Shown one piece after another: positions 10,865 to 42,080 of a stretch of DNA of 64,000 nt. The notes under the pieces were generated by a model. The model did no database searches. It had not been told where the DNA came from and saw nothing but the letters and a program-made list of their open reading frames with translations. Numbering within the stretch: the stretch's first letter is position 1; every line of letters begins with the position of its first letter. The DNA is from Haloechinothrix aidingensis. Lineage in GTDB: Bacteria > Actinomycetota > Actinomycetes > Mycobacteriales > Pseudonocardiaceae. Location of the stretch: contig NZ_JACCKD010000004.1 of NCBI RefSeq assembly GCF_013450155.1, positions 434,001 through 498,000 on the forward strand. Reading direction: 5' to 3'. A program made the translations under genes and the position numbers.

Positions 10865-11041
10865 CACGTTGTCCTCTCGCCACGTCGTGTACTCGCCGCG
10901 CGCCGACCCGACCGCGGGGCTGTCCCGAACGCTACGTCGCGAATGTGCCGGGCAGGTACACCGCAGTCCCGCTCACCGGGATTGCCGCCACGCCCGCCCG
11001 CTGCACACGGGCACGCGCCGAACGATCTCGTTACTCGCCAG

Positions 11042-11070: not shown

Positions 11071-11098
11071 AGGTATGTTCCGTCTGGAGGTAGCAAGC

Positions 11099-20017: not shown

Positions 20018-20046
20018 TTGACATTTCGATTAGTAATACTTCTAAT
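20018..20046 (+). promoter_or_regulatory. Promoter D of the shared regulon (ribBA-TRAP)
   Basis: -35 TTGACA at 20018-20023, 17-bp spacer, -10 TCTAAT at 20041-20046. The inverted repeat GATTAGTA-ATAC-TTCTAATC (20028-20047; one mismatch between the arms) covers the -10 and is the most symmetrical version of the shared element. ribBA starts 25 nt downstream with a clear GGAGG. Confidence 0.8.
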
Positions 20047-20071
20047 CATTATGTATCAGGTGGAGGTGGTC

Positions 20072-21373: not shown

Positions 21374-21404
21374 GCCCCGCTCCGCGAGCACGGGAGAGAA
21401 GCCG

Positions 21405-22697
21405 ATGAGCATCAACCAATCACACCCAGGTCGCAGGCGAACCGTTCCGTTCGCGCTGCCACTGGCCACCGCCCTCCTACTTTCGGCGTGCGTCCAGTCC
21501 ACAAGCGATGGAGCATCCGCCGGAGGACCCGGCGTCGAGCACGGCGCGTCGAAGGAGGCCTACGTCGACGCGCTCGCAGGAGCGGGACAGGTCACGCTGA
21601 CCATGCAGACCGCGGGCAGCCCCGGCCACTACACCAGCCGGGCGACGGAGCAGTACGCCGAGACCGTCGAGGAGTGGTCCGGCGGAACGGTCGAGATCGA
21701 GATCGCCTACGGGGACGCTGTCGCACCTGCGACCGAGATCCCGGATGCGCTCGCCGACGGCAGGCTCGACCTCGGGCTCGTGCTCCCGCTGTACGACCCG
21801 TCGCGGTACCCGGTCAACAACGCGCTCGCCGACATCAGCTTTCTCGGCACGCACAGCCCCGTTGTCGGGACGTTGGAGACGACAGCGGGCTTCCTGGAAG
21901 CCGCGTTCGATACTCCCGAGCTGACCGAGGAGCTGGAAGGCGAGGGCATCATGCCGCTGCTTCCCTACGCGCCGACGGACTCCGTCGGCATGGCCTGCAC
22001 CGAACCCCGCACCGGCGCCGACGAGCTACACGGATCGCAGGTCCGGGTCAGTGGCTCGGTGCACGGAGAGCAAACCGAGGCGCTCGGGATGACGCCGGTC
22101 TCGCTGTCCTACGAGGAGATGTACGAGGCCCTGCAACGCGGCACCATCGACTGCGCCGCCGCGGCACTGTGGGTGGGGGAATTCGCCGGCTTCCTTCCGG
22201 TCGCGCCGGAGTTCACGGTCGGCAGCGAAGCGGCCCTGTCCCGCATCCCGTACAGCCTCGGCATCGGCATGTCGACGTGGGAAGACCTGCCCCTGGCGGC
22301 ACAGCAGCTTCTGCACGACAGGCTGGACGTCTTCATCGAGGGCATGCTCCGGCACGGCATCTGGGAAGGCATCACAGAGGCACTCGAGGCAGTCGACGAG
22401 AACGGAGGGTCCGTCCGCGGCTACGGCGCGCAGGCACGAGAGGAGCTGCACGCGGTCAACGAGACGATCCTCGACGACGTGCGTGCCACTGACGCGCTCG
22501 CCGACGGCGAGACGTTCGTGCGCGACACCCGGGAGTCCGTGCGGCACTGGCACGATGTCGTCACCGGCGAGCTCGGCTACGCCGACGAGGGCGGATACGG
22601 CGACTTCGCCGAGTGGTACTCCCCTGCGGAGATCGACCTGACGCCGTTCCTCGACCGGCTCGACTCGGATGTGCTGCGCGAGCAGCGCCCGGACTGA
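21405..22697 (+). CDS. TRAP transporter substrate-binding lipoprotein (DctP type)
   Basis: A 430-residue periplasmic binding protein with a lipoprotein signal (LLLSAC, lipid Cys29) and the DctP fold (VTLTMQTAGSPGHY near the start, LPYAPTDSVGMACTEPR, LHGSQVRVSG, PVSLSYEEMYEALQRGTIDCAA). TRAP receptors bind organic acids, including aromatic and sterol-type acids. It is longer than most DctP proteins, with an extended C-terminal region. First gene of dctPQM, 31 nt after ribBA and probably on the same transcript. Confidence 0.88.
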   Translation: MSINQSHPGRRRTVPFALPLATALLLSACVQSTSDGASAGGPGVEHGASKEAYVDALAGAGQVTLTMQTAGSPGHYTSRATEQYAETVEEWSGGTVEIEIAYGDAVAPATEIPDALADGRLDLGLVLPLYDPSRYPVNNALADISFLGTHSPVVGTLETTAGFLEAAFDTPELTEELEGEGIMPLLPYAPTDSVGMACTEPRTGADELHGSQVRVSGSVHGEQTEALGMTPVSLSYEEMYEALQRGTIDCAAAALWVGEFAGFLPVAPEFTVGSEAALSRIPYSLGIGMSTWEDLPLAAQQLLHDRLDVFIEGMLRHGIWEGITEALEAVDENGGSVRGYGAQAREELHAVNETILDDVRATDALADGETFVRDTRESVRHWHDVVTGELGYADEGGYGDFAEWYSPAEIDLTPFLDRLDSDVLREQRPD

Positions 22698-22730
22698 CCC
22701 GCGATCGCAGGAACCCGGGGAGGTCGAGTC

Positions 22731-23216
22731 ATGGCGCGGCAACGGTGGCTGCGGGCGAGTGGCGCGGCGGCCGAGTACGTCGCCGCTGCGGCGTTGCTGG
22801 TGATGGCGGTGCACATCGTGGGCAACGCCCTGCTGCGATCGCTGCTGAACCACCCGCTGAGCGGGACGAACGAGTACGTGTCGTACTGGTACCTGCCGGT
22901 CGTGGCCCTGCTCGGGTTCGTGGCCGCGCAGCGCCGGGACCAGCACATCGAGGCGCGGCTGCTGTTCGACCGGTTGCGGCACCGCAACCGGATCGAGGTC
23001 CATCTGGCGGGGCGCATCGTCGTGCTGGTGCTGTGCCTCGGCTTCGCCGGGTACGGCGCGCAGGAGGCCGTGGACAACTGGCGCATCGGGCTCACCGGCG
23101 GGGTGAGTGAGGTGGTCGTCTGGCCCGTCACCTTCGCCGTCCCCGCGGCCTTCGCGGCGCTCGCCGGGCAGACCCTCGCGGACATGCTCACCACTTCCGG
23201 AAGGGAGTCACTATGA
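22731..23216 (+). CDS. TRAP transporter small permease (DctQ type)
   Basis: A 161-residue membrane protein with four hydrophobic segments (starting near residues 16, 50, 87 and 130), the size and pattern of DctQ subunits (SGTNEYVSYWYLPVVALLGFVAAQRRDQHIEARLLFDRL-like charged loop). It forms the membrane complex with DctM. GGGGAGG is about 8 nt ahead of ATG 22731; its stop overlaps dctM in ATGA. Confidence 0.87.
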   Translation: MARQRWLRASGAAAEYVAAAALLVMAVHIVGNALLRSLLNHPLSGTNEYVSYWYLPVVALLGFVAAQRRDQHIEARLLFDRLRHRNRIEVHLAGRIVVLVLCLGFAGYGAQEAVDNWRIGLTGGVSEVVVWPVTFAVPAAFAALAGQTLADMLTTSGRESL

Positions 23217-24727
23217 CCGGCTCCCGGGTCGAGCGGGATGGTCCCGGTACGTCCCTCGCGGCAGGCGCGGCTCCGCGCGCCGGTGTCGCGGGCGGCCCCG
23301 GCGCCCACCGGAAGGGGGCATGGTGGCCCCGTGTCGCGGCGCCTGCCGTGGCGGCCATCTGTGTGCTGCTGATGTTCGGACCGTTCACCCGCGAGACCGT
23401 GGGCGCGGCGGCGATCCTGGCGACCGTCCTGCTGATCTTCCTCAAGGTGCCGGTGGGCATCGCGTTGGCGGCGCCTGCCGTGGCCGCGCTCTACGCGTTA
23501 CGCGGCCCGCGCACGTTGGAGACCATGCTGGCAACGGTGCCGTTCGACGCGGTGAGCCAGTGGACACTCGGCGTCATCCCGATGTTCGTGTTCATGGGAC
23601 TGTTGCTCGCCAGGTCCGGTGTCACCGACACCCTCTACACCGCGGCGCGACACTGGCTCGGCTGGCTGCCCGGCGGCCTTGCCATCGGAACCACGGCCGC
23701 GGGGACCGGCCTCGCCGCGGTCAGCGGGTCGACGGTAGCCACCACCTACACGCTCGCCAGGATCGGGATCCCGGAGATGCTGCGGGCAGGCTACGACCGC
23801 CGAGTCGCTGTGGGGTCGGTCATCGTCGCCGGCTTGCCCGGCCAGCTCATCCCGCCAAGCATCTTCCTGGTGATCTACGCGGGCATCGCACAGGTGCCGG
23901 TAGGGCCGCAGCTCATCGCCGGAATCGGGCCGGGCCTGCTGGTGGCGTTCGGTTACGCGACGATGATCCTCGCACTGTGCCGGCTCCGCCCTTCCCTGGC
24001 CGGGCGGGGAACCGGCACACGCCTGGACGGCTCGACCTGGCATACCCGGCTGCGCAGCGCGGCACGGTGCTGGCCGGTACCCGTGCTGATAACCGCCGTT
24101 GTCGGCAGCATGTTCACCGGCGTGCTCACCGCTACCGAGGCAGGCGCGGCCGGCGCGCTCGGCGCGCTGCTGCTGACCCTGTGGTACAAGCGCACGGACA
24201 GGCCGCTGTCGGCGGTCGCAGGCGCCGCGACCGACACCGTAGCCACGGTCGGCTCCGTCTTCCTGCTGTTGATCGGCGCGATGATCCTCTCGCGGCTGCT
24301 TGCCGTATCCGGGATCGGAACCGGGTTCGCCCAGTGGGTCACCGAGCTCGGCCTGGGGCGTGTATCGTTCCTTCTCCTGCTCGTGGCGGCCTACCTGGTA
24401 TTCGGCACGTTCATGGACCCCCTGTCCATCATGTTGCTGACCGTGCCCCTGCTCGTCCCCACTCTCGACACGATGGACATCTCGCTGCTGTGGTTCGGTG
24501 TGTTCGTCGTGTTCCTCGCGGAGCTGGCGATCGTGACGCCGCCGGTCGGCATCCTGTCCTTCATCGTGCACCGGATCGTCGCCGACCCCGAGGTCAACGG
24601 CGGGCAGACGATCACGCTCGGGGACATCTTCCGCGCTGTCGCCTGGTTCCTGCCGGTCACGCTGGTGATCTGCGTACTGCTCATCGTCTGGCCCGGCATC
24701 GCCACGTTCCTGCCGGAGCTGATGTGA
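23213..24727 (+). CDS. TRAP transporter large permease (DctM type)
   Basis: A 504-residue protein with about 12-13 membrane helices and the DctM signatures LKVPVGIALAAPAVAAL, IPMFVFMGLLLARSG, GTGLAAVSGSTVATTYTLARIGIPEMLRAGYD, GLPGQLIPPSIFLVIYAGI and TATEAGAAGALGALL. It couples solute uptake to the sodium or proton gradient. A polar N-terminal stretch of about 40 residues precedes the first helix and is longer than usual. Last gene of ribBA-dctPQM; a 67-bp convergent gap follows with no clear terminator. Confidence 0.9.
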   Translation: MTGSRVERDGPGTSLAAGAAPRAGVAGGPGAHRKGAWWPRVAAPAVAAICVLLMFGPFTRETVGAAAILATVLLIFLKVPVGIALAAPAVAALYALRGPRTLETMLATVPFDAVSQWTLGVIPMFVFMGLLLARSGVTDTLYTAARHWLGWLPGGLAIGTTAAGTGLAAVSGSTVATTYTLARIGIPEMLRAGYDRRVAVGSVIVAGLPGQLIPPSIFLVIYAGIAQVPVGPQLIAGIGPGLLVAFGYATMILALCRLRPSLAGRGTGTRLDGSTWHTRLRSAARCWPVPVLITAVVGSMFTGVLTATEAGAAGALGALLLTLWYKRTDRPLSAVAGAATDTVATVGSVFLLLIGAMILSRLLAVSGIGTGFAQWVTELGLGRVSFLLLLVAAYLVFGTFMDPLSIMLLTVPLLVPTLDTMDISLLWFGVFVVFLAELAIVTPPVGILSFIVHRIVADPEVNGGQTITLGDIFRAVAWFLPVTLVICVLLIVWPGIATFLPELM

Positions 24728-24794: not shown

Positions 24795-26423
24795 TTACTC
24801 GGTCAAGCGTACCGTCCTGCCGCCGACGACCGTACGCATCACCCGCGCCCGTAGCAGCGACTCCGGAGGCCTGCCGAACGTGTCGGAGTCGACGACCACG
24901 AAGTCCGCGAGCACGCCCGCGCGCAACGTGCCGAACCGCTCCTCCGCGTGGCAGGCCCAGGCCGAGTCACGTGTGCCGTGCACGATGGACTCGTCCAGCG
25001 GCAACGCGTAGTGCGGCAGGAACGCCGGCAGCTCCGGATCGGCAGCCGAGCGTCGCGTGCTGGCGATGTACATGTTCGGCAGCGGCGCGTGCGGGGCTGT
25101 CGGCGCGTCGGTACCGAAGGCGAGCCGGGCACCCGACGCGGTCATCTCCGGCCAGGCGAACCCCCTGTCGACCCGCTCGTCTCCGAGCATCGCCCGCCAG
25201 TTCTCCATGATCGACGGGTCGGCGTGTACCGGCTGCATGGATGCCGTGACTCCCAGCTCGGCCAAGCGGCCGACGTCGCTGGGGTCGACGTACTCCAGGT
25301 GCTCGATGCGGTGCCTGTGCCGCGACGGCCCGTTGACCTCCCTGGCGTGCTCCAGCGCGTCCAGGGCCGTGCGCACCGCGCCGTCCCCGATCGCGTGCAG
25401 CGCGATCTGCAGGCCCTCGGCGTCGGCAGCAGCCACCACGGGAGCCAGGGCCTCATAGGGCCAGATCGCCTCGGCGTTGCTGCCGTCCGCGTAGGGGCGC
25501 GTCATCGCGGCCGTGCAACCGTCGATGACGCCGTCGACGACGAACTTCACCCCGGTGACGCGCAGGTGATCGGAGCGGTACGTCCGGGCGAGCTCGGCTG
25601 CGCTGCGCACGTGTGCCAGCTCCTCTTCCGTGCTGCCCGAGCGGGGAACCAGCCAGTGCGCGACCACCCTCAGGTCCAGGTTCCCGGCCTGCTCGGCGCG
25701 CACCATCGCCGCGAGGGCACGCTCGTCCAGCGCCATATCGACCGCGCAGGTGACCCCGCTGGAGAGGTAGGCGTGCACGGCCGTGGCCAGCGCACTGTCG
25801 CGTTCGGATTCGCTCGTCAGTTCAGCGAGCCTGTCCCGCACGGCCATCGCCGCGGTCTCCTGGAGGTGGCCGGTGGGCTCACCGGTTTCCGGGTCACGGA
25901 CGATCTGCCCACCGACCGGGTCCGGGGTCGCCGCGGTGATACCCAGTTCTTCCAGCGCGGCCGTGTTGAGCCACATCGAATGGTAGTCCGCGGCGTCCAG
26001 GTACACCGGCCGATCGGCGAGCACCTCGTCGAGCACGGCCCGGTGCGGGGTCCCGTCCGGCACCGCCGAGAACGACCAGCCACGTCCGCGCACGCGGGGC
26101 GCGGCGGGATGCTCGTGCGCCCATGCGCCGACCAGGCCCCGGATCTCGTCGAGGTCGCTCGCCCCGGTCAGGTCCGCCTGGCTCAACGCCTCACCACACA
26201 TCACCACGTGGGCGTGGCCGTCGACGAAGCCGGGCAGCACGAGCGCGCCTGCCAGGTCGATCTCGCGTGCCTCCGCACCGGCGTACCGGCGGACCTCACC
26301 GGTGCCGCCGACGGCGGCGATGTACTCACCGCGCACGGCGAACGCCTCCGCCCACGGCCGTTCCGCGTCGCCGGTGAACACGCGGCCGTTGACGTAACAC
26401 TCCACGGCTGAGCCATCGGTCAC
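24795..26423 (-). CDS. YtcJ/NfdA-type amidohydrolase (cytosolic)
   Basis: A 542-residue amidohydrolase-3 family enzyme. Metal motif DGHAHV (69-73), then DGVIDGCTAAM, HAIGDGAV, RIEHLEYV and FGTDAPTAP are the ordered metal and active-site segments. Relatives deformylate N-substituted formamides or hydrolyse other amides. No signal peptide. GTG 26423 overlaps the stop of the NCS1 permease in GTGA, so import and hydrolysis are coupled. A longer in-frame reading up to 27761 only reads through the permease in the wrong frame. One of three such amidohydrolases in the window (see 27936 and 57700). Confidence 0.88.
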   Translation of the reverse strand: MTDGSAVECYVNGRVFTGDAERPWAEAFAVRGEYIAAVGGTGEVRRYAGAEAREIDLAGALVLPGFVDGHAHVVMCGEALSQADLTGASDLDEIRGLVGAWAHEHPAAPRVRGRGWSFSAVPDGTPHRAVLDEVLADRPVYLDAADYHSMWLNTAALEELGITAATPDPVGGQIVRDPETGEPTGHLQETAAMAVRDRLAELTSESERDSALATAVHAYLSSGVTCAVDMALDERALAAMVRAEQAGNLDLRVVAHWLVPRSGSTEEELAHVRSAAELARTYRSDHLRVTGVKFVVDGVIDGCTAAMTRPYADGSNAEAIWPYEALAPVVAAADAEGLQIALHAIGDGAVRTALDALEHAREVNGPSRHRHRIEHLEYVDPSDVGRLAELGVTASMQPVHADPSIMENWRAMLGDERVDRGFAWPEMTASGARLAFGTDAPTAPHAPLPNMYIASTRRSAADPELPAFLPHYALPLDESIVHGTRDSAWACHAEERFGTLRAGVLADFVVVDSDTFGRPPESLLRARVMRTVVGGRTVRLTE

Positions 26424-27898
26424 GGGACGGGCTCTCCTTCCACACTCGCGGGCCCGCCTGCCGGGCCGCGCGGGACGTAACCGCCCTTGACCGCAGGCCG
26501 GACCCACACCGCGGTGGCCACGGCGTAGACCGCAGCGGTCACGACGAATGCCGGTACGGATGCCGAGGTGTACCGGAACGCGGCGGCCGCCTCGAACGTC
26601 ATCGGGTTCAACAGCAGGTAGTACGTCACCACCCCGGCACCGAGCGCCAGGAACGCAGCCGGGTTGACCCCGCGCCAGAAGGAGTACCGCGAGCGCCCCT
26701 CGTCGGCGTAGAGCTCGCGCACGTCCAGCTGCGCGCGGCGAAGCAGGTAGTAGTCGGTGAGGTACACCGCGGTCAGCGGGGCCATCGCCAGCCCGACCCA
26801 GGCGACGAACGTGAAGAAGTTGTCGTAGAGCGCAGCAGGCCAGAACACCACGACCCCGGCAGGGGTGTACAGCAGCGCGACGAACAGCGGCCACGGGATC
26901 CGCCGCAGCGCGGACCCACCGGCGCGGATCAGCGCGAGGCTTCCCGAGTAGGTCTGCGCCACCATGCTGGTGACGTTGGCGAACGCCACGAACAGCAGCG
27001 CGAGCGCGCCAAGCACGACCCCGCCGAGCGGGACCATCCACACCGTCGGGTCGACATCGCCGAGCACCAACGCCGCGAGCGTTCCCACCGTGCCCGCGAC
27101 CACGCTCGCCAGGAAGATCCCGATCAGGTTGGGCCAGAAGGCGTTGCGCTGGGTGGTGGTCAGCCGCGCCAGGTTCCCCATGATGGTCCACCAGGAGAAC
27201 CCCGTCGCGAAGCTCAGCTCGAGCGCGATGGTGAAGTTGAGCCCCTTGTCGGCGAACGCGTCGAGCGGAGGCGCCGCGGCGAGCTCGGCGAGGGAGTGCT
27301 CGCGCAGCAGCACGACGAGCATCAGCACGGTGAGCACCGCCAGCGCCGGAGCCACGATCTTGTTGATCCACTCGATCGACACCGGACCGCGTACCAGGGT
27401 CATCCACGACACCGCCAGCGCGAGCAACGACATGGCGATCACCATCGGGCCCGCCGGGTCGAATTCCACGCCGAACACCGCGCCGAGCACATTGGTCACC
27501 GCACGGCCGACCATGATGGCCAGCACGCCGTTCCACCCCGCTATCATGACCGGCATCAGCAGCACGAGCAGGATCCGTACCCCGTTGATGCCGAACACCG
27601 AGCGCAGCGCGGTGTACTGCTCGAGACCGTACTTGGCCGACGGCAGGCACGTCGCAAGGGCGACGAGGGACACGCCGACGAGGTTGCCGATCACCGTGGC
27701 CGCGATCGCGGTGCGGATCCCGACGAACATCGCGATGGTCCCTCCGGTGAGGAAGGCCCATGTCGCGATCGCCAGTCCCACGTTGACCGAGGTGAACTTC
27801 CAGAACCCCCAGATCCGCTCGCCGGGCAGCACGGGAAGCTCGGTGAACTCCCCCGCCGTCGCGGCCGCACGGTCCGGTTTGCGCGGCGCCCGGGCCAT
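26420..27898 (-). CDS. NCS1-family permease (first copy)
   Basis: A 492-residue transporter with 12 expected helices and NCS1 marks (ERIWGFWKFTSVNVGLAIATWAFLTGG, GWNGVLAIMVGRAVTNVLG, TGFSWWTIMGNLARLT). NCS1 proteins import nucleobases, hydantoins, allantoin, thiamine or related nitrogen compounds. ATG 27898 is chosen: GAGGGTGG is about 10 nt upstream, while GTG 27910 lies inside that site. Roughly three quarters of residues match the second copy at 29997. It is linked to the secreted amidohydrolase upstream through a 13-codon ORF and to the cytosolic amidohydrolase downstream by overlap. Confidence 0.9.
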   Translation of the reverse strand: MARAPRKPDRAAATAGEFTELPVLPGERIWGFWKFTSVNVGLAIATWAFLTGGTIAMFVGIRTAIAATVIGNLVGVSLVALATCLPSAKYGLEQYTALRSVFGINGVRILLVLLMPVMIAGWNGVLAIMVGRAVTNVLGAVFGVEFDPAGPMVIAMSLLALAVSWMTLVRGPVSIEWINKIVAPALAVLTVLMLVVLLREHSLAELAAAPPLDAFADKGLNFTIALELSFATGFSWWTIMGNLARLTTTQRNAFWPNLIGIFLASVVAGTVGTLAALVLGDVDPTVWMVPLGGVVLGALALLFVAFANVTSMVAQTYSGSLALIRAGGSALRRIPWPLFVALLYTPAGVVVFWPAALYDNFFTFVAWVGLAMAPLTAVYLTDYYLLRRAQLDVRELYADEGRSRYSFWRGVNPAAFLALGAGVVTYYLLLNPMTFEAAAAFRYTSASVPAFVVTAAVYAVATAVWVRPAVKGGYVPRGPAGGPASVEGEPVP

Positions 27899-27939
27899 CA
27901 CAGGAACCACCCTCGCTTGTTACGCGGCACGATCGTCAC
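27898..27939 (-). CDS. Possible 13-residue coupling peptide
   Basis: A GTG at 27939-27937 overlaps the amidohydrolase stop (GTGA), has GAGGAGG a few nt upstream inside that gene, and opens a 13-residue frame MTIVPRNKRGWFL whose TGA overlaps the permease ATG (TGATG). The geometry is that of a translational coupling leader or the relic of a small gene. Whether the peptide itself matters cannot be said. Confidence 0.4.
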   Translation of the reverse strand: MTIVPRNKRGWFL

Positions 27940-29900
27940 GACCTATCCTCCTCACGCTCGGGTTGCAGTCTGGAGTGGACGACCTCGCCGCCCACCATGG
28001 TGTGCAGCACTGTCGTCTCCGAGATGTCGTCGCGCGGTACGTCGAACAGGTTCTGGTCGAGCACGAGCAGGTCGGCCAGCTTCCCGCGCTCCAGCGATCC
28101 CGTGACCTCGTCCTGGTGCATGGCGTAGGCGGCGTCGATCGTCATCCCCCGGATCGCCTCGGCCAGTGACAAGCCGGGATCCTCGTTGAGAGTTCCCGCG
28201 TACTCGGGGTACTCCGGACCCCAGTCGGCGGCCCGGAGCACGGCCACTTCGAGCGCGAAGAACTGGTCGAGCGGGTCGACGGGGTAGTCGCTCCCGAAGG
28301 CGATCCTGGCTCCCGCCTCGTGCAACTGCCCTTCCGGCTGGTACCAGTCCCACCGCTCGGGACCGAGGTAGGGCTTCACGGCGTCCGTCGAGTCCGGAGC
28401 GGGTTTGGCCCACTGGTAGGACATCACGGGCAGGACGCCGAGCTGCTCGAAACGTCCGAAGTCGTCCGGATGCACGATCTCGGCGTGCTCGACGGAGGGG
28501 CGCGAGTCGGTACCGTGCCCGGCGCCACGGGCACGTCCCTGCCCGTAGCCGTGCCCGGATCCCGCGCCGTCCTCGTGCCCACGGCCCTGGGTGCTGTCAT
28601 CGCGCATGGCCGCGAAGCTGTCCAGGGACGACCGGACGGCCCGGGAACCGATCGCGTGGACCTTGGTCTGGTAACCGGCCTGATCGAGCGTGGTCACCAT
28701 CTCGGCAAGAGCGTCCGGGTCGATGTAGAGCTCTCCGTCGTTGTCGCCCGGTACCCACTCCGGCTCATCGTCGGTGCCCACGTTCTCGCGATACGGCTCC
28801 AGCAACGCGGCCGTCTGGGCCGGATGCTGCGAGATCCCGTCCATGAAGTACTTCACACCGTCGATCGAGACGCCGGGCTCGGCGACCACGCGCGGTCCCG
28901 CGACGTGGTCCGAGCGCCACCGGTGGACCTGCTGGGGGAGCTGGTCGAGATTCTCGAGCTCCGCGCGCATCCGGTCGAGCTCGTCGACGAACCGGTCCAG
29001 ATCCTCCCCGGTGGCCGCCTGCCCCCGAATCGCGAAGTGGGCACGCGACGTCAGCCCGCCGTCCTCACGGAGCCGAACGAAGTTCTCGACCGTCTCGCCG
29101 CTCGCGCCCGGCACGAAGAAACTGGTGATGCCCTCCTCGGCGAAGGTCTCCATGCCGCGGCCCGCCGCCACGACCGGGTCCACCGGCGGAGGTGGCGGGA
29201 TGACTTCGTCCACGAGCTGCTGCGCCCCGTCGTACAGCCATCCGTCCGGTTCGCCGTCACCGTCCCTACCGATCACGCCGTCGGGCGGGTCCTCGGTCTC
29301 GGACGTGATCCCGGCCAGCTCGAGCGCACGCGAGTTGGCCAGCGCGGAATGCGCGAAGACCGAGTACACGATGACGGGCCGGTCGGTGTCGAGCGCGTCC
29401 AGTGTGTCCTTGTCCACCTCGGCCCCTCTGGGGCGCAGGAACTGGATGTACCAGTTGTCGACGGGAAGCCAGTCGTCAGCGCCCGTGCCGAACTCGGGGT
29501 TGTTCGCACACTCCTCGATGCGGGCCTCGAACTCCGCGACGGTCAACGGCTGGTAGTCGAGGTCGCATCGCGGATGCCCCTCCGAGATGCCGTGGATGTG
29601 GGCGTCGTGAATTCCCGGCATGACCATCCGGCCGTCGAGATCGATCACCTCGGTGCCGGCACCGATGAAGCCCTCCGCACCACGGTCGTTGCCCACGTAG
29701 ACGATGACACCGTCTTCGACCGCGACCGCCTCGGCGACCGACCCCCTCGCATCGGCGGTGTAGACGAACCCGTGCAGCAACACCGTGTCGGCCCCCGCGC
29801 CGGACTCGCTGTCTGCCGCGGCTCCCGTGGCTCCGGTCGCGGTGGTCAGAGCCAGGGCTACCGCCCCGATGGCAACGCAGATACGACGCATCGTCCGCAT
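27936..29900 (-). CDS. Exported YtcJ-type amidohydrolase
   Basis: A 654-residue amidohydrolase-3 protein with an N-terminal signal peptide (MRTMRRICV, hydrophobic core, cleavage near AAADS). Core motifs are GIHDAHIHG (metal), GVKYFMDGIS, KVHAIGSRAVR, EHAEIVHPDD and FGSDYPVDPL. It carries an inserted Gly/His/Arg-rich stretch at about residues 435-465 that is absent from its cytosolic relatives. AGGAGG is 9 nt ahead of ATG 29900. Location outside the membrane, followed by an NCS1 importer, suggests that it releases the imported compound. It lies between the two NCS1 genes, 96 nt from the upstream one. Confidence 0.87.
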   Translation of the reverse strand: MRTMRRICVAIGAVALALTTATGATGAAADSESGAGADTVLLHGFVYTADARGSVAEAVAVEDGVIVYVGNDRGAEGFIGAGTEVIDLDGRMVMPGIHDAHIHGISEGHPRCDLDYQPLTVAEFEARIEECANNPEFGTGADDWLPVDNWYIQFLRPRGAEVDKDTLDALDTDRPVIVYSVFAHSALANSRALELAGITSETEDPPDGVIGRDGDGEPDGWLYDGAQQLVDEVIPPPPPVDPVVAAGRGMETFAEEGITSFFVPGASGETVENFVRLREDGGLTSRAHFAIRGQAATGEDLDRFVDELDRMRAELENLDQLPQQVHRWRSDHVAGPRVVAEPGVSIDGVKYFMDGISQHPAQTAALLEPYRENVGTDDEPEWVPGDNDGELYIDPDALAEMVTTLDQAGYQTKVHAIGSRAVRSSLDSFAAMRDDSTQGRGHEDGAGSGHGYGQGRARGAGHGTDSRPSVEHAEIVHPDDFGRFEQLGVLPVMSYQWAKPAPDSTDAVKPYLGPERWDWYQPEGQLHEAGARIAFGSDYPVDPLDQFFALEVAVLRAADWGPEYPEYAGTLNEDPGLSLAEAIRGMTIDAAYAMHQDEVTGSLERGKLADLLVLDQNLFDVPRDDISETTVLHTMVGGEVVHSRLQPEREEDRS

Positions 29901-29996
29901 CGCAGGACACCTCCTGTTTATCGGCTCGCTGACTCGCCTGCGACCACCGCGCCTGTCGACCGGCACGCCGCTGTACGGATCGCGAGGGTCTGTGGG

Positions 29997-31517
29997 TTAA
30001 CGCACCGCAGCCGGTCGCTCGGTATCGGCGGCATCCGGCCCAGCGGGCACCGACGCTGCTGCCCCGGTGGGCGGGCCGTAGCCGCCCTTGCCCGCTCGGG
30101 CCACCCACAGCACCGTCAGCGCTGCGTGCAGCACGGCCGTGACGACAAGGGACGGGACCGATGCGGTCAGGTACCGGAACGCCTCGGCCGACTCGAAGGT
30201 CACCGGGTCGAGCAGCAGGTAGTAGGTCAGCGAGCCCGCCGCGACCGCGACGAGCGCTGCCGGGTTGAACCCGCGCCAGAAGGAGTACACCGAGACCCCG
30301 TCGGGCTCGTAGAGCTCACGCACCAGCAGGCGGCGCCGCCGCAGCACGAAGAAGTCCGTGATGTAGACCGCCGTCAGCGGCGCCATCGCCAGCCCCACCC
30401 ACGCCATGAACTTGAAGAACTGGTCGTAGAGCACCTCGGGCCAGAACGACATCACCGCGGCGGGCGTGAACAGCAGCGCGACGAACAGCGGCCACGGGAT
30501 GCGCCGGACCACCGAGCCCGCCGCCCGCACCAGCGCGAGCCCTTCGGCGTAGGTCTGCGAGACCATGCTCGTGACGTTGGCGAAGGCGATGAACAGCAGC
30601 GCGAGCGCGCCGAGCGCCACACCGCCGATCGGGATCATCCACACCGTGGGGTCCTCCGACCCCACCACCAGCGCGGCGAAGGTGCCGACGGCACCCGCGA
30701 CCACGGTGGCCCCGAACAGGCCCACGATGTTCGGCCAGAACGCGTTGCGCTGGCTCGTGGTCAGGCGGGCGAGGTTGCCCATCATGGTCCACCAGGAGAA
30801 CCCCGTCGCGAAGCTCAGCTCCACGGCCGCGGCGAAGTTGAGCTGGTCGTCGGCGTAGGCCTCGAGGGGTTGCGCCGCGGCCAGCTCGCCGAGCGAGTGA
30901 TGTCCCAGCAACAGGACAAGCATGACCACCGTCAGCACCGACAGCACCGGCGCGACGAGCTTGTTCACCCACTCCAGCGAGACCGGCCCGCGGGAGAGGA
31001 CCAGCCACGACATCGCGACCGCGAGCAACGACAGCGCGATCACGACCGGCCCGTTCGGGTCGAACTCGGTGCCGAACGCGGCACCGAGCACATTGGTCAC
31101 GGCCCGGCCGAACATGATCGCCAGGATCGCGTTCCAGCCCGCGAGCGAGACCGGGAGCATCACGGCGATGAGCACGCGCACACCGTTGGTACCGAACACC
31201 GAGCGCAGCGCGGTGTACTGTTCCAGCCCGTACTTGGCCGACGGCAGGCAGGTCGACAGCGCGACAAGGACCACGCCGACCAGGTTGCCGATCACCGTGG
31301 CCGCGATAGCCGTCTTCGCCCCGGCGAACAGCGCGATCGACCCGCCGGTGAGGAAGGCCCAGGTCGCGATCGCCACGCCGACGTTGACGGAGGTGAACTT
31401 CCAGAACCCCCAGATCCGCTCGCGGACGAGCACGGGGAGTTCGGTGAACTCGCCTGCCACCGACGAGTCACGGCTGGGATCCGATGTCACAGACGCCTTC
31501 ACCACGGGTACCCCCAT
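29997..31517 (-). CDS. NCS1-family permease (second copy)
   Basis: A 506-residue NCS1 transporter, paralogous over its full length to the copy at 26420 (GEFTELPVL-RERIWGFWKFTSVNVG, CLPSAKYGLEQYTALRSVFG-NGVR, ELSFATGFSWWT-MGNLARLTT-QRNAFWPN are shared). ATG 31517 lies inside the preceding small gene; GTG 31502, which forms a GTGA overlap with that gene's stop, is an alternative. Downstream of aguA, aguB and a 56-residue membrane protein, so it may import agmatine-, carbamoyl- or guanidine-type compounds; substrate is inference. Confidence 0.9.
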   Translation of the reverse strand: MGVPVVKASVTSDPSRDSSVAGEFTELPVLVRERIWGFWKFTSVNVGVAIATWAFLTGGSIALFAGAKTAIAATVIGNLVGVVLVALSTCLPSAKYGLEQYTALRSVFGTNGVRVLIAVMLPVSLAGWNAILAIMFGRAVTNVLGAAFGTEFDPNGPVVIALSLLAVAMSWLVLSRGPVSLEWVNKLVAPVLSVLTVVMLVLLLGHHSLGELAAAQPLEAYADDQLNFAAAVELSFATGFSWWTMMGNLARLTTSQRNAFWPNIVGLFGATVVAGAVGTFAALVVGSEDPTVWMIPIGGVALGALALLFIAFANVTSMVSQTYAEGLALVRAAGSVVRRIPWPLFVALLFTPAAVMSFWPEVLYDQFFKFMAWVGLAMAPLTAVYITDFFVLRRRRLLVRELYEPDGVSVYSFWRGFNPAALVAVAAGSLTYYLLLDPVTFESAEAFRYLTASVPSLVVTAVLHAALTVLWVARAGKGGYGPPTGAAASVPAGPDAADTERPAAVR

Positions 31518-31669
31518 GCGAGCATCGCGATGATCAGGACAAGGCTCGCCGCGGCCAGCCATGCCAGCTCGCGCCCCGGAAGGTCCGCCCGTGCGGGGTC
31601 GTGGAAGTCGGGGTCTTCGATGATGTCCAGTCTGCGGTCGAGCTCGCGGCGGAACTCTGCGGAGTCCAT
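31499..31669 (-). CDS. 56-residue single-helix membrane protein
   Basis: A small gene not listed by simple long-ORF criteria. The protein starts MDSAEFRRELDRRLD, has a charged N-terminal 35 residues and one hydrophobic helix (AWLAAASLVLIIAMLAWG) before ending GYPW. GGAGGA lies about 6 nt before ATG 31669 and the gene begins directly after aguB (1 nt gap), then overlaps the NCS1 start by 19 nt. Tiny one-helix partners are known for several secondary transporters, so it is a candidate accessory subunit of the second NCS1 permease. No counterpart with a helix exists at the first NCS1 copy. Confidence 0.75.
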   Translation of the reverse strand: MDSAEFRRELDRRLDIIEDPDFHDPARADLPGRELAWLAAASLVLIIAMLAWGYPW

Positions 31670-31670: not shown

Positions 31671-32621
31671 TCAGTCCTCCTCGGTCAGCGCGCCGTAGGT
31701 GTCGGGGCGCCGGGTCTGCAGGAACGGGAAGAGATCCAGCCAGTCACGGCGCTGGTCCAGATCGAGCGGGGCAACAAGGACCGCGTCCGCGTCGCGCGGG
31801 GCGGAGGCGAGCACGCGGCCGTACGGGTCGGAGATGAAGGACGACCCGTAGAAGCTGATCACGCCCTCGTCGCCCCAGCGGTTGGGCACCACCATGAACG
31901 TGCCGTTGGCGATGCCGTTGCCGATGATCACCTGGCGCCACAGTGGCTGGGTGTCGAAGTCGGGATGGTCGGGTTCTGACCCGATCGCGGTCGGGTACAC
32001 CAGCACCTCGGCACCGCCGAGCGAGTAGGCCCGTGCCACCTCGGGGAACCACTGGTCCCAGCAGGTCGGCAGGCCGAACCGGGCACCGGTCGGGGTGAGC
32101 GTGCCGGGCAGCTCGACGACCGGGTACGCGTCGCCGCCCGCGGGCCCTCCCCTGAAGTAGCGGTCCTCGTAGTAACCGGCCGTCTTCGGGATGTGCAGCT
32201 TGCGGGTGCGCCCGAGCAGCGTCCCGTCCGGAGCGACCAGGATCGCCGTGTTGTAGCCGCGCCCGTCCGGCCCGTCCGCCCACTCGAACAGCGAGGCGTG
32301 CACCGCGACACCGGCATCGGCTGCCGCCTTCGCCGCGAACGTGTACGTCGGGCCGGTCTCGAGGTCCTCGGCGGTCGCCGCGGCGTCGCCCTCCGGCAGG
32401 GTGTCGGCCGGGTACCGCGACAGTGTCAGCTCGGGCAGGCACACCACGCGAGCGCCCGCGCCCGCGGCGAGCTCGATGCCCTCGGCGAGTACCCGCTGAT
32501 GCTCGTCGGCGTCGGCGTGCCACCGGGTCTGCACGAGCCCGACCGCGAGCGGGTCCCGCTCCGGCTCGGTGACCCTGGCCGGGGACGGTCGGCGTTGCGC
32601 CGTGATCAGCCGCATGTCCAT
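31671..32621 (-). CDS. aguB: N-carbamoylputrescine amidase (AguB-like nitrilase)
   Basis: A 316-residue nitrilase-superfamily enzyme with the full Glu64-Lys141-Cys187 triad (LPELTLS, RTRKLHIPK, PTCWDQWFPE). The run CWDQWFPE-AR is typical of AguB, which removes the carbamoyl group from N-carbamoylputrescine to give putrescine, CO2 and ammonia. It follows aguA after 13 nt, which strongly supports the role. Starts at ATG 32621 or 32615; GAGGAG lies 3 or 9 nt upstream respectively, so 32615 may be the real one. Confidence 0.9.
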   Translation of the reverse strand: MDMRLITAQRRPSPARVTEPERDPLAVGLVQTRWHADADEHQRVLAEGIELAAGAGARVVCLPELTLSRYPADTLPEGDAAATAEDLETGPTYTFAAKAAADAGVAVHASLFEWADGPDGRGYNTAILVAPDGTLLGRTRKLHIPKTAGYYEDRYFRGGPAGGDAYPVVELPGTLTPTGARFGLPTCWDQWFPEVARAYSLGGAEVLVYPTAIGSEPDHPDFDTQPLWRQVIIGNGIANGTFMVVPNRWGDEGVISFYGSSFISDPYGRVLASAPRDADAVLVAPLDLDQRRDWLDLFPFLQTRRPDTYGALTEED

Positions 32622-32634: not shown

Positions 32635-33735
32635 TCACGGACCCTCTGCGGGTGCCGGTTGTTGCTGGGTGATGCAGTGGACGCCGCCGCCGAAGGCGAA
32701 CATCTCGCGCGCGGCGACCCGCTCGACCACCCGTCCCGGGTAGGCACGCCGCAGCACGTCGGCGGCGACCTCGTCGTGCGGGTCGTCGAACGCGGGCAGC
32801 ACGACCACCCCGTTGGCGACGTAATGGTTGACGTAGGAGTAGTCGGTCGGCCGCCCGTCGGTCTCGTAGCCTGCCTCGGGGGCTGGCAGCTCCACGACCT
32901 CGAGCTGCCTGCCCCGCGCATCGGTACTGCCACGCAGCAGCGCGGCGGCCTCGGCGGAGACCTCGTGGTCGGGATGGTCCGGGTCGTTCTGGGTGTGCAC
33001 GGCCACGACCCCCGGCCGCAGGAAGGTGGCGAGCAGATCCACGTGCCCCCGCGTACCGAACGTGTCGTAGTCGCGGCTGAGCCCGCGCGGCAGCCAGATG
33101 GCCGCGGACGTACCGAGCCGGGCGTGTACCTCGGCCTCCACCTCCGCGCGGGTCCAGCCGGGGTTGCGCCGGTGGTCGAGCTGCACCGTGTCGGTGAGCA
33201 GGACGGTGCCCTGCCCGTCGGTGTGGATGCCGCCGCCCTCGGTGACCAGCGGGGACGGCCGTGCCGGGCACCCGGCCAGCTCCGTCACGTGGCCGGCGAG
33301 GTGGGCGTCGCGCTCCCATTCCGCCCAGTCCTGGTCACCCCAGCCGTTGAACACCCAGTCGACCGCGGCCACGCCCGAGGCCGACGCCGCGTCCCGCACG
33401 AACGTGGGGCCGGAGTCGCGGATCCACGCGTCGTCGATGGGCAGCTCGACCACGTCCACCTCGGCGGGCACCATCGACCGTGCCGCGCCCGCCTGGCCGG
33501 TGCCTGCGACCAGCGTGACCGGCTCGTACCGCACCAGCGTGCGTGCCACCTCGGCCCACGCGCGGCGGGCAGCGCGCAGCGTGGCCGACCCCTCATCGCC
33601 GAACGTGTCGTTCGGTGGCGGGAAGGCCATCCAGGTGCGCTCGTGGGCGCACCACTCGGCGGGCATCAGCGCGCCTGCGCCGGGTGATTCTCCGTCCGCG
33701 ACACCCCCGGCTATCCCGGGAGCCGGTTCGGCCAT
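32635..33735 (-). CDS. aguA: Agmatine deiminase (AguA)
   Basis: A 366-residue member of the agmatine deiminase/PPAD family. It has WCAHERTWMAFPPP, DDAWIRDSGPTFV, VTEGGGIHTDGQGT, RGHVDLLATF and the C-terminal GGGVHCITQQQP with catalytic Cys354. It turns agmatine into N-carbamoylputrescine. ATG 33735 has GGAGAG 6 nt upstream; the longer start at 33786 would run into the divergent lrp gene. First gene of the minus operon aguA-aguB-small membrane protein-NCS1 and onward. The gap to the divergent Lrp gene is only 24 bp. Confidence 0.93.
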   Translation of the reverse strand: MAEPAPGIAGGVADGESPGAGALMPAEWCAHERTWMAFPPPNDTFGDEGSATLRAARRAWAEVARTLVRYEPVTLVAGTGQAGAARSMVPAEVDVVELPIDDAWIRDSGPTFVRDAASASGVAAVDWVFNGWGDQDWAEWERDAHLAGHVTELAGCPARPSPLVTEGGGIHTDGQGTVLLTDTVQLDHRRNPGWTRAEVEAEVHARLGTSAAIWLPRGLSRDYDTFGTRGHVDLLATFLRPGVVAVHTQNDPDHPDHEVSAEAAALLRGSTDARGRQLEVVELPAPEAGYETDGRPTDYSYVNHYVANGVVVLPAFDDPHDEVAADVLRRAYPGRVVERVAAREMFAFGGGVHCITQQQPAPAEGP

Positions 33736-33759: not shown

Positions 33760-34245
33760 GTGGTCAATCAGAACACGACTGCGCACGCCGCCGGATCACC
33801 TGTGCTGGACGAGGTGTCCAAGCTGATCATCGAGCAGCTGCAGCAGGACGGGCGCCGGTCGTACGGCGCGATCGGCAAGGCCGTCGGGCTGTCCGAGGCG
33901 GCGGTACGGCAGCGGGTGCAACGGCTCACCGAGGCCGGTGTGATCCAGATCGTGGCCGTCACCGACCCCATGCAGGTCGGCCTGTTCCGGCAGGCCATGC
34001 TCGCCATCAACGTCGACGGACCGCTCGAGCCACTCGCCGACGCGCTCGCCGAGATGGACGAAGTGGACTACGTCGTGATCTGCACCGGCCGCTTCGACGT
34101 GCTCTGCGAGGTGGTCTGCGCCGATGACTCCGACCTGCTGGACCTGGTCTCCAACCGTATCCGCACGCTGGCCGGGGTGCGCAACGTCGAGACGTTGACC
34201 TACCTGAAGCTGCGCAAGCAGACCTACCAGTGGGGTACCCGCTAG
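33760..34245 (+). CDS. Lrp/AsnC-family regulator (first of two)
   Basis: A 161-residue Lrp protein: helix-turn-helix (SYGAIGKAVGLSEAAVRQRVQRLTEAGVIQ, about 35-63) and a RAM effector domain (FRQAMLAINVDGPLEP, VICTGRFDVLCEVVC). GTG 33760 lies 6 nt after TACAAT (33748-33753), so the message is probably leaderless. Divergent from aguA and convergent with the aldehyde dehydrogenase at 34258 (12-nt gap). About three quarters identical to the second Lrp at 35884. Likely senses an amino acid or polyamine intermediate and controls this block. Confidence 0.92.
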   Translation: MVNQNTTAHAAGSPVLDEVSKLIIEQLQQDGRRSYGAIGKAVGLSEAAVRQRVQRLTEAGVIQIVAVTDPMQVGLFRQAMLAINVDGPLEPLADALAEMDEVDYVVICTGRFDVLCEVVCADDSDLLDLVSNRIRTLAGVRNVETLTYLKLRKQTYQWGTR

Positions 34246-34257: not shown

Positions 34258-35703
34258 TCAGCCGCTGATGTCGGTCATGACGTGCTTGACCCGGGTGTAG
34301 TCCTCGAGCCCGTACATCGACAGGTCCTTGCCGTAGCCCGACTTGCCGAAGCCGCCGTGCGGCATCTCGGCGATCAGCGGGATGTGGGTGTTGATCCACA
34401 CGCAGCCGAAGTCGAGCCGCTTGGACATCCGCATCGCGCGCCCGTGGTCGCGGGTCCACACCGAGGAGGCCAGCCCGTAGTCCACCCCGTTGGCCAGCCG
34501 GACTGCCTCGTCCTCACCGGAGAACCGCTGCACGGTCAGCACCGGTCCGAAGACCTCCTGCTGGATGATCTCGTCGTCCTGTTTCAGGCCGGAGACCACC
34601 GTCGGGGCGTAGAAGAAGCCGCGGTCACCGACCCTGCTCCCGCCGTGGTGGACCGAGGCGTGGTCGGGCAGCCTGTCCACGAAGCCCGCGACACGGTCGA
34701 GCTGCGCTGCCGAGTTCAGCGGCCCGTACGCGGCCTCCGGGTCGTCCGGTCCCGCGGTCCGGGTGCCCGCGGCCTGCTCGGCGAGCGCGGCGACGAGATC
34801 GTCGTGCACCTCCTCGGATGCCAGCACGCGGGCGGCCGCGGTGCAGTCCTGTCCGGCGTTGAAGTACCCGGCCTCGGCGATGGCGGCCGCGGCCGCCGGG
34901 ACGTCGGCGTCGTCGAAGACCACCACCGGCGCCTTGCCGCCGAGCTCCAGGTGCACCCGCTTGAGGTCGGCGGCAGCGGCCTCGGCGACCTCCGTGCCCG
35001 CGCGCACCGAGCCGGTGATGGAGACCATGTCCGGGGTCTCGTGTGTGGTCAGCAGCCTACCGGTGTCGCGGTCGCCGCAGACCACGTTGAGCACGCCCTG
35101 CGGCAGGAACTCCGCGGCGATCTCGGCGAGCAGCACGGTCGTGGCAGGCGTGGTGTCGGAGGGTTTGAGCACCACGGTGTTGCCCGCTGCCAGGGCGGGG
35201 GCGATCTTCCAGATCGCCATCAGCAGCGGGTAGTTCCACGGGGTGACCTGGGCGCACACCCCGACCGGCTCGCGGCGCACGAACGAGGTGAGACCGTCCA
35301 TGTACTCGCCTGCCGACTTGCCTTCCAGCACCCGCGACGCGCCCGCGAAGAACCGCAGGTGGTCGAGCACCATGGTCAGCTCCTCGGCTCGCGTCACAGC
35401 GAGGGGCTTACCGGTGTTCTCCGACTCGGTGGCCACGATCTCGTCGGCGCGCGCCTCGAGCGCGTCGGCCAGCCTGGACAGCGCGAGCTGCCGCGTGGCA
35501 GGGGTGGCGTCGCGCCACCCGCCGAACGCTCCGGAGGCCGCGGCGAACGCTCTGTCCACATCGGCCTGCCCGGCGAGCGCGGAGGTCGCGTACACCTCGC
35601 CGGTAGCCGGGTTGACGACGTCCAGCGTGCGACCGTCCACGGAGTCGGCGTGCGCACCGCCGATGAAATGGCGGAAGGTTTTCTTCTGGCTGGGCTCACT
35701 CAT
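34258..35703 (-). CDS. Gamma-aminobutyraldehyde-type dehydrogenase (first copy)
   Basis: A 481-residue NAD-dependent aldehyde dehydrogenase. PWNYPLLMAIWKIAPALAAGN, LELGGKAPVV (general base Glu) and FNAGQDCTAA (catalytic Cys) are visible; the NAGQDCTA context is typical of aminobutyraldehyde dehydrogenases (PatD-like), which oxidise 4-aminobutanal from putrescine to GABA. Very like the copy at 38142; their last 45 residues are almost identical. Transcribed divergently from the second lrp, with a palindromic site (35788-35804) in the gap. Confidence 0.88.
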   Translation of the reverse strand: MSEPSQKKTFRHFIGGAHADSVDGRTLDVVNPATGEVYATSALAGQADVDRAFAAASGAFGGWRDATPATRQLALSRLADALEARADEIVATESENTGKPLAVTRAEELTMVLDHLRFFAGASRVLEGKSAGEYMDGLTSFVRREPVGVCAQVTPWNYPLLMAIWKIAPALAAGNTVVLKPSDTTPATTVLLAEIAAEFLPQGVLNVVCGDRDTGRLLTTHETPDMVSITGSVRAGTEVAEAAAADLKRVHLELGGKAPVVVFDDADVPAAAAAIAEAGYFNAGQDCTAAARVLASEEVHDDLVAALAEQAAGTRTAGPDDPEAAYGPLNSAAQLDRVAGFVDRLPDHASVHHGGSRVGDRGFFYAPTVVSGLKQDDEIIQQEVFGPVLTVQRFSGEDEAVRLANGVDYGLASSVWTRDHGRAMRMSKRLDFGCVWINTHIPLIAEMPHGGFGKSGYGKDLSMYGLEDYTRVKHVMTDISG

Positions 35704-35883: not shown

Positions 35884-36369
35884 GTGCCGGTGCAATCCAA
35901 CGGCAAGCAGACACAGCGCAACGACACCCTCGACGAGACGGCGAAGAAGATCATCGAGCAGCTCCAGGAGGACGGCCGCCGCTCCTACGGCGCCATCGGG
36001 GCGACGATCGGACTCTCGGAGGCCGCCGTACGGCAGCGGGTGCAGCGCCTGACCCAGAGCGGCGTCATGCAGATCGTGGCGGTCACCGACCCGATGCAGG
36101 TCGGCCTGTTCCGGCAGGCGATGGTCGGCCTGAAGATCGACGGGCCGCTCGAGCCGGTCGCCGACGCCCTCGGCGCGATGGACGAGATCGACTACGTGGT
36201 GATGTGCTCCGGACGGTTCGATCTGCTGTGCGAGATCGTCTGCACGGACGACGAGCACCTGCTGGAGCTGATCTCGCAGCGCATCCGCTCGCTGCACGGG
36301 GTCCGCGACATCGAGACGATGGTGTACCTGAAGCTGCACAAGCAGTCATATCAGTGGGGAACTCGCTAG
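35884..36369 (+). CDS. Lrp/AsnC-family regulator (second of two)
   Basis: A 161-residue Lrp protein with helix-turn-helix SYGAIGATIGLSEAAVRQRVQRLTQSGVMQ and RAM domain (FRQAMVGLKIDGPLEP, VMCSGRFDLLCEIVC), a paralogue of the one at 33760; both end YQWGTR. Start GTG 35884; no strong ribosome site is seen. A perfect 17-bp palindrome follows the stop by 3 nt, ahead of the aminotransferase gene, and another lies about 80 bp upstream, so autoregulation and control of both neighbours is likely. Confidence 0.9.
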   Translation: MPVQSNGKQTQRNDTLDETAKKIIEQLQEDGRRSYGAIGATIGLSEAAVRQRVQRLTQSGVMQIVAVTDPMQVGLFRQAMVGLKIDGPLEPVADALGAMDEIDYVVMCSGRFDLLCEIVCTDDEHLLELISQRIRSLHGVRDIETMVYLKLHKQSYQWGTR

Positions 36370-42072: not shown

Positions 42073-42080
42073 CGAGAACC

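Follow-up and report, generated by a model that had tools for sequence, protein, structure and literature searches.

Organization of the locus

The window analysed here, that is, the whole stretch of 64,000 nucleotides, comes from the actinomycete Haloechinothrix aidingensis (contig NZ_JACCKD010000004.1, positions 434,001 to 498,000) and is part of a genome of 4.84 Mb in 15 contigs (G000). It carries a candidate salvage operon for agmatine and putrescine. Six genes lie head to tail on the minus strand, from position 33735 to 24795, in the order aguA-like, aguB-like, NCS1B, AH2, NCS1A and AH1 (table 1). The first two resemble genes for agmatine deiminase and N-carbamoylputrescine amidase. NCS1A and NCS1B encode permeases of the NCS1 family, and AH1 and AH2 encode metal amidohydrolases of the Amidohydro_3 (YtcJ) type. 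The gaps measure 19 (aguA/aguB), 108 (aguB/NCS1B), 96 (NCS1B/AH2) and 25 bases (AH2/NCS1A), and NCS1A and AH1 overlap by 4 bases. To judge from this spacing, the run is probably transcribed as one operon. An original prediction, made from the sequence of the window, had described the last four genes, the downstream half of the run, as tandem pairs of hydrolase and permease. Their presence and placement were borne out, as was the closeness of the two permeases (71% identity over 491 residues). The prediction had overlooked the two genes just upstream on that strand, the agmatine-deiminase-like and the N-carbamoylputrescine-amidase-like one.

In the established pathway, agmatine is converted to N-carbamoylputrescine, putrescine, aminobutyraldehyde and finally γ-aminobutyric acid (GABA). 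The neighbourhood of the six genes is very probably a catabolic island for this route. The best matches of the AguA-like protein in the PDB are the agmatine deiminases 3H7C and 1VKP; it aligns with 3H7C over 342 residues and keeps the stretches HCITQQQP and RDSGPTF, which we take to be the active-site cysteine motif and the guanidine-binding stretch. The AguB-like protein is best matched by the N-carbamoylputrescine amidohydrolase 5H8I, with its CWDQWFPE stretch aligned.

A conserved permease–amidohydrolase unit

A profile of six permeases (A1: both window copies and those of G004, G069, G029 and G006) was searched against a genome collection. It returned 26 loci, a set that the NCS1 query biases towards NCS1 neighbours. 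An AH1 orthologue directly follows the permease in nine of nine loci at 61% identity or more (the L031 copy is cut by the contig end) and is missing beside it in all 16 loci at or below 45%. At the single locus at 56%, the contig ends 122 bases past the permease. The conserved unit is NCS1 plus AH1, not two pairs; the apparent tandem pairs of the window arise from a duplicated permease and a distant hydrolase. The system is rare. At E ≤ 1e-60, the permease profile matches nine of the 397 genomes sampled from the order and four of the 396 from the phylum, the source genome counted in each. The G genomes of these counts, and of the AH1 and AH2 searches below, are samples taken evenly from larger groups.

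AguA and AguB directly precede NCS1–AH1 in five other genomes: Haloechinothrix halophila, three Actinophytocola metagenome-assembled genomes (MAGs) and Amycolatopsis palatopharyngis. Their place is taken in Pseudonocardia nigra by an APC permease, an agmatinase that passes its cut-off and an aminobutyraldehyde-type dehydrogenase, and in two Blastococcus genomes and Pseudonocardia TRM90224 by a TetR gene.

When AH1 was the sole query, orthologues at 47–64% identity came up in other genomes of the order, 11 of them assessable for a neighbour; the NCS1 query had already returned two of these 11. A further one, in G248, is truncated at the contig end, and in L076, where AH1 runs from base 38 of the contig, the neighbour is not scorable. 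A transporter gene adjoins AH1 in all 11: a MetT-like NCS1 permease in two, a permease of another NCS1 group in six, an MFS transporter in two and an oligopeptide-type ABC importer in one. Plasmids agree, with AH1 beside the other NCS1 group in Tsukamurella and beside an ABC transporter in Pseudarthrobacter. The cytosolic hydrolase is therefore tied to import, and its importer is exchangeable. The original prediction had envisaged hydrolysis of a nitrogen compound with dedicated import. For the cytosolic enzyme and its transporter this is supported; for an exported first stage it is not.

Ties to putrescine catabolism recur in differently built forms. The AH1 loci considered number 21, comprising the window, the named genomes and the G genomes, with duplicates removed and plasmids not counted. 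Within about 9 kb, eight of them contain a polyamine gene (agu, agmatinase, putrescine oxidase or an aminobutyraldehyde-type dehydrogenase at 55% identity or more), and six, window included, contain a relative of the aldehyde dehydrogenases ALDH1 or ALDH2 of the window at that level. In G402 (L073), AH1 is clustered with a putrescine oxidase (945 bits to Rhodococcus 2YG3), a 57% relative of ALDH1, an APC permease and a second amidohydrolase. PF07969 relatives at 35–42% identity to AH1 (20 of the 37 such matches from the AH1 search) have such a dehydrogenase in four of 20 loci, and L080 also has an adjoining agmatinase-family gene. For comparison, 11 relatives of ALDH1 at 55% or more occur in 41.3 Mb over six genomes, so that such a stretch would hold one by chance in roughly 0.5% of cases. 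This rate is if anything too high, because the six genomes were picked among those with matches and six of the 11 dehydrogenases are the copies near amidohydrolases; the loci are related by descent, and the comparison is therefore not a formal probability.

Three loci show further arrangements. Just past the agu operon of H. halophila (L022 13–4298) lie an FAD amine-oxidase-like gene with weak family matches, an agmatinase that passes its cut-off and an NhaC-type antiporter, a set reminiscent of the arginine monooxygenase route. In one Actinophytocola MAG, AH1 is immediately followed by another amidohydrolase reading (L024 8500–9306), which is broken; the two form a further tandem, and a 40-residue AH2-like match at this locus is part of the broken reading. 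In G705, which lies outside the order, Pot-type importer genes flank a PF07969 enzyme (35% to AH1) on one side, and two aminotransferases with a 73% aminobutyraldehyde-type dehydrogenase do so on the other (L100 3177–15927).

The permeases and the MetT-like subclade

Both permeases pass the PF02133 gathering score of 23.5 (NCS1A 87.0, NCS1B 83.7 bits), and both miss the TIGR00800 cut-off of 353.1 for NCS1 nucleobase:cation symporters (102.5 and 92.7 bits). They are mutual nearest kin in two trees (support 84/87 and 93/88), which gives moderate support to a tandem duplication within this lineage. The first of these trees and the amidohydrolase tree omit L030, L032, L053, L054, L062 and L037, which are the same contigs as L024, L022, L034, L033, L036 and L025. 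The first permease tree and the 24-row alignment also lack L029, L038, L040 and L069, whose aligned stretch extends beyond a stop close to the C-terminus, and L051, a split match.

The AlphaFold2 model of NCS1B (pLDDT 84.5) has helix breaks at residues 66–67 and 256–257, equivalent to broken transmembrane helices 1 and 6. Its best Foldseek matches are the hydantoin permease Mhp1 (2X79, E 2.3e-14) and the cytosine permease CodB (7QOA, E 2.6e-12). In an alignment with Mhp1, W143 and W257 of NCS1B are matched to its Trp117 and Trp220, a pairing that is uncertain because a profile alignment gives another register for these helices; Q42, Q121 and N318 of Mhp1 are absent at the matching positions. 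Transport of nucleobases or allantoin is not favoured, as the curated cut-offs are missed and the hydrogen-bonding residues of Mhp1 are not kept. Glu248 of NCS1B, invariant in 24 of 24 rows, was considered as a cation-binding residue and dropped: in the model it lies some two turns ahead of the break in helix 6.

The closest functional reference is MetT of Aminobacter, an NCS1 protein of a separate clade. According to the accessible passages of PMC13390362, it imports metformin with a Km of 15.9 µM, and its variants W43A, W117A and W231A retain 2.2, 9.0 and 11.2% of transport. These tryptophans correspond to W68, W143 and W257 of NCS1B and are conserved in NCS1A and in 24 of 24 clade rows; the mapping runs through the permease of plasmid pMET-2, whose numbering is one higher for the last two, rather than through a direct comparison with MetT. 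The position of MetT Phe47 holds Thr in both window permeases, so metformin itself is not predicted as their substrate. The position of Thr260 holds Thr in NCS1B and Ser in NCS1A; both positions vary across the clade.

A plasmid search returned 19 records with permease relatives at 38–46%. Among them are the Pseudomonas plasmids pMET-2 and pKHPS1 of metformin degraders, whose identical permeases share 43% with the window copies; hypA, hypB and a TetR gene sit between the permease and an agmatinase-family gene. The permeases of the window and of the metformin plasmids stand among 30 rows of a tree in which a 100/100 branch separates off two rows of the other AH1-linked NCS1 group; Mhp1, CodB and MetT itself are not included in this tree, and its inner branching is partly open. 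In published work, a cytosine permease is listed with the genes that accompany the plasmid permease, in regions sharing more than 90% similarity across four metformin degraders (PMC9800807), and in strain MD1 an NCS1 homologue is also essential for growth on metformin (PMC9699525).

An agmatinase-family gene lies within about five genes of the permease relative in all six plasmid records opened, out of the 19 matched. MetT-like relatives are found near agmatinase-family genes in the stretches opened from Ensifer, Roseateles, Gemmobacter and Thioclava, and such a gene lies within 3 kb of the permease in 10 of 11 Leucobacter loci. From this recurrent setting and the conserved tryptophans, it is likely that NCS1A and NCS1B import a guanidinium or cationic amine compound. 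It might be agmatine itself or another free guanidine, in which case AH1 would belong to the same regulon but act on the side, on an unrelated lactam, ureide or other amide. The MetT-like permeases of Ensifer, Roseateles, Gemmobacter and Thioclava occur without AH1, so guanidine transport need not accompany the hydrolase, and AH1 for its part also adjoins other transporter families. Such free import is nevertheless rather unlikely for the window, given the adjacency of AH1 and permease in every locus at 61% or more and the 4-base overlap of NCS1A and AH1.

Other settings of the subclade were seen as well. One subgroup of MetT-like permeases (49–54%) adjoins a monoamine-oxidase-like gene in L027 (288–3485), L055, L056 and L057; the L055 gene scores 319 bits to 8P84, and those of L027, L056 and L057 resemble it at 64–93%. 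L057 and L052 of Pseudomonas capeferrum have in common a flavoenzyme near the permease (56%, by eye like trimethylamine dehydrogenase). On the Ensifer, Roseateles and Gemmobacter plasmids (L104 and L105, both 6054–12064, and L106 5330–12129), the genes for an agmatinase, an aldehyde dehydrogenase, a small open reading frame, a MetT-like NCS1 permease and a choline-dehydrogenase-like protein follow in the same order, with other genes in place of the aldehyde dehydrogenase in L106; this set may encode a pathway for guanidino-alcohols. A different cluster is shared by L026 (2634–11868) and L061 (1735–11122), from two families of the order: RibBA, a pair of Lrp genes, a luciferase-like protein, a remote MetT-like NCS1 permease (33–37%) and an amidohydrolase like AH3, the third such enzyme of the window (table 1). 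The luciferase-like proteins, so named by eye, are 54% alike, and an imported nitrogen compound may be cleaved here in a flavin-dependent reaction.

The amidohydrolases

AH1, AH2 and AH3 all pass the PF07969 gathering score of 29.7 (table 1) and share the six metal and lysine residues H, H, K, H, H, D (H70, H72, K293, H343, H375 and D439 in AH1). They are not close copies, because pairwise identity is only 28–30% (AH2 29% and AH3 29.6% to AH1). The original prediction had placed one hydrolase outside the cell and one inside, and both assignments hold. The N-terminus of AH2, MRTMRRICVAIGAVALALTTATGATGA, is a signal peptide by eye, and the peak hydropathy over 12 residues within the first 50 is 2.9 for AH2, 1.1 for AH1 and 1.4 for AH3.

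From this layout it had been proposed that a single compound is deamidated stepwise, AH2 acting first outside the cell and AH1 afterwards in the cytosol, each enzyme with its own permease. The signal peptide of AH2 and its place between the permeases on the same strand speak for such an obligatory sequence. The comparative evidence points the other way. The 396 other genomes among the 397 sampled from the order lack any match to AH2 at E ≤ 1e-75, and the NCS1–AH1 loci examined elsewhere hold no orthologue of it. The closest relative that was found, in G594 (about 50%), lacks both a clade permease and agu genes within about 9 kb, and the second permease reflects duplication in the lineage. Because AH2 is not co-conserved with NCS1–AH1, the obligate scheme is unsupported and was set aside as improbable. 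AH2 looks like a late addition of this lineage.

AH3 was also weighed as a member of the AH1 system and rejected. It falls in a separate branch of the amidohydrolase tree (which lacks the L031 AH1, cut by the contig end), shares 30% identity with AH1, and has its own IclR-type regulator and NMT1-type importer. As originally described, it converges on this ABC importer.

Neighbouring genes give a hint about the acyl side of the AH1 substrate. The Pseudarthrobacter AH1 orthologue (59%) is preceded on the same strand by genes annotated as CoA-ligase, enoyl-CoA hydratase and 3-hydroxyacyl-CoA dehydrogenase, none of which passes an NCBIfam cut-off among the matches listed. HpaB-like and flavin-reductase-like genes lie close to AH1 in G069. 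An aromatic or fatty acyl amide would suit these neighbours.

Proposed function

The six genes are best explained, with a probability of about 0.5, as an agmatine/putrescine salvage operon. The steps would be as follows. (i) NCS1A and NCS1B would take up an amine compound that carries a guanidinium group or is cationic in another way, held by a cage of Trp residues; this compound is probably an amide of agmatine or putrescine. (ii) AH1 would cut the amide bond in the cytosol, most likely freeing agmatine or putrescine from the acylated form; taken by itself, this assignment is tentative. (iii) AguA and AguB would convert agmatine to putrescine by way of N-carbamoylputrescine. (iv) The neighbouring aminotransferase and aminobutyraldehyde dehydrogenases would carry putrescine on to GABA. 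(v) AH2, the exported and lineage-specific accessory, may trim larger or less permeable conjugates outside the cell. Of the substrates listed in the original prediction, guanidino compounds and N-acyl polyamines were in the right direction.

Several results weigh against this proposal. The AguA-like and AguB-like proteins fall short of the TIGR03380 and TIGR03381 cut-offs (381.8 and 410.25). Among the structural matches listed, the two solved folds closest to AH1 (AlphaFold2 model, pLDDT 94.8), 3IGH and 3ICJ (Z 46–48), are both uncharacterised; next come carboxypeptidases, prolidases and ochratoxinases, which cut amides (Z 32–35), barely above deaminases (Z 31–32). Thirty residue positions specific to AH1 emerge from the alignment, which without a ligand-bound structure are not readable as a substrate code, and sequence does not fix the substrate of AH1; for AH2, too, the assignment is presumptive. 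Among the compounds tested, MetT was needed only for metformin and 1-methylbiguanide, and homologues at 70% and 92% did not restore growth on metformin, according to the portions of PMC13390362 at hand. Clade membership therefore does not reveal the ligand. The pMET-2 permease has Ser in place of Thr260, and hence is not identical to MetT. In Leucobacter, the agmatinase-family gene does not directly adjoin the permease, and other relatives of the subclade lie next to the monoamine-oxidase-like genes mentioned above (L027, L055–L057) or near genes that by eye are C–N-hydrolase-like (L058, L059). Finally, 13 of the 21 AH1 loci lack any recognisable polyamine gene within about 9 kb, to the extent that their contigs cover it; both Blastococcus genomes, Pseudonocardia TRM90224, G069, G072, G168 and G227 are among them. 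AH1 may thus serve other substrates too.

These 13 loci, together with the variety of AH1 partners (MetT-like NCS1, another NCS1 group, MFS and oligopeptide-type ABC transporters), are what would be expected if AH1-type enzymes were broad nitrogen-scavenging amide hydrolases and the agmatine genes mere neighbours in this lineage. This is improbable in view of the repeated and differently built links to putrescine, through AguA and AguB, through agmatinase with an aldehyde dehydrogenase, and through putrescine oxidase with an aldehyde dehydrogenase; such links extend to the more distant PF07969 relatives.

The salvage proposal has a bolder form. The operon may be dedicated to amides of agmatine or putrescine, for example plant hydroxycinnamoyl-agmatines, with an exported and a cytosolic amidohydrolase and guanidinium-specific NCS1 importers. 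On this view the MetT-like subclade would originally have served for such import, and not for that of nucleobases, and the metformin importer would have been recruited from it. In this full extent the idea is unlikely. A tie between agmatine deiminase and plant hydroxycinnamoyl amides appears for Frankia as an authors' hypothesis in the available text of PMC9956245.

Comparison with known systems

The agmatine deiminase pathway of Arthrobacter sp. Rue61a, as far as the consulted sections of PMC3534580 describe it, shares with the window the AguA-like and AguB-like genes and those for oxidation of putrescine to GABA. The window operon differs by its added MetT-like NCS1 permeases and Amidohydro_3 hydrolases, and its Agu scores lie under the cut-offs. 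With MetT (PMC13390362, in part), there is likeness in the grouping with the metformin-plasmid permease, the three essential tryptophans and the proximity to guanidine-hydrolysing enzymes; the window differs in an identity of about 43% to the plasmid permease, Thr at Phe47, and partners that are an agmatine deiminase and an amidohydrolase rather than a metformin hydrolase. Amidohydro_3/YtcJ-like enzymes include the metal-dependent bile salt hydrolases (extracts of PMC13081902), which match the window enzymes in the PF07969 profile and the six metal-site residues; the window enzymes differ by their setting in a polyamine-catabolism island. The N-substituted formamide deformylase NfdA is also named in PMC13081902. 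Mhp1 and CodB are alike as the top structural matches of NCS1B. A pathway joining agmatine, NCS1 permeases and amidohydrolases, or this layout, was not found in the open literature, as judged from titles, the starts of abstracts and passages, with subscription journals mostly outside the scope.

Other features of the window

The genes next to the operon are listed in table 1. The Pot-type importer is kept alongside the operon in L022 and L028. At positions 20018–24727, a RibBA-like gene and then a complete TRAP transporter (DctP, DctQ, DctM) are directed towards the AH1 end. A promoter scan of both strands found none, and such a scan has little weight in a high-GC actinomycete. PADLOC gave no match for AH1 or AH2.

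Table 1. Features of the operon and its surroundings in the H. aidingensis window.
Feature	Position	Strand	Description and evidence
AH1	24795–26423	−	cytosolic Amidohydro_3 (YtcJ-type) metal amidohydrolase; GTG start overlaps NCS1A stop, 4 bases shared; PF07969 315 bits
NCS1A	26420–27910	−	MetT-like NCS1 permease; alternative ATG at 27898; PF02133 87 bits
AH2	27936–29900	−	exported Amidohydro_3 amidohydrolase, signal peptide by eye; PF07969 241 bits
NCS1B	29997–31562	−	MetT-like NCS1 permease; alternative ATG at 31517; PF02133 84 bits
AguB-like	31671–32615	−	N-carbamoylputrescine amidase-like; PF00795 158 bits; TIGR03381 198.8 bits, under cut-off
AguA-like	32635–33735	−	agmatine deiminase-like; PF04371 348 bits; TIGR03380 297.9 bits, under cut-off
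Lrp/AsnC-type regulator 1	33760–34245	+	divergent from aguA; tblastn relatives 67–68% in sister loci L024, L028, L029
ALDH1	34258–35703	−	aminobutyraldehyde dehydrogenase; NF010000 708.9 bits, cut-off 615 passed
Lrp/AsnC-type regulator 2	35884–36369	+	PF01037/PF22482
Class-III aminotransferase	36484–37920	+	putative putrescine/polyamine aminotransferase, amine substrate presumed; PF00202 310 bits; NF005102 808 bits, cut-off 574 passed
ALDH2	38142–39605	+	second aminobutyraldehyde-type dehydrogenase; 68–80% to copies in sister loci L022, L027, L028, L029
PotA, PotD, PotB-like	39621–42938	+	polyamine-type ABC importer; PF00005/PF08402, PF13416, PF00528; PotC-like reading begins 42889
AH3	57700–59364	+	third Amidohydro_3 hydrolase, outside operon; PF07969 322 bits
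ABC importer near AH3	59367–62808	−	ATPase 59367–60320, permease 60966–61784, NMT1-type binding protein 61789–62808

Significance

The YtcJ-type family is huge, with 110,952 PF07969 sequences downloaded in one study (PMC13081902, excerpts), and few of its members have been tested. The recurrent tie to putrescine catabolism gives one branch of this family a short substrate list. MetT, in turn, was characterised with a drug, as the parts of PMC13390362 drawn on describe it. Because MetT-like relatives repeatedly lie near guanidine-hydrolysing enzymes (AguA and the agmatinase family) in both Actinomycetota and Pseudomonadota, agmatine and its amides are a concrete and testable proposal for the natural ligands of the MetT-like subclade.

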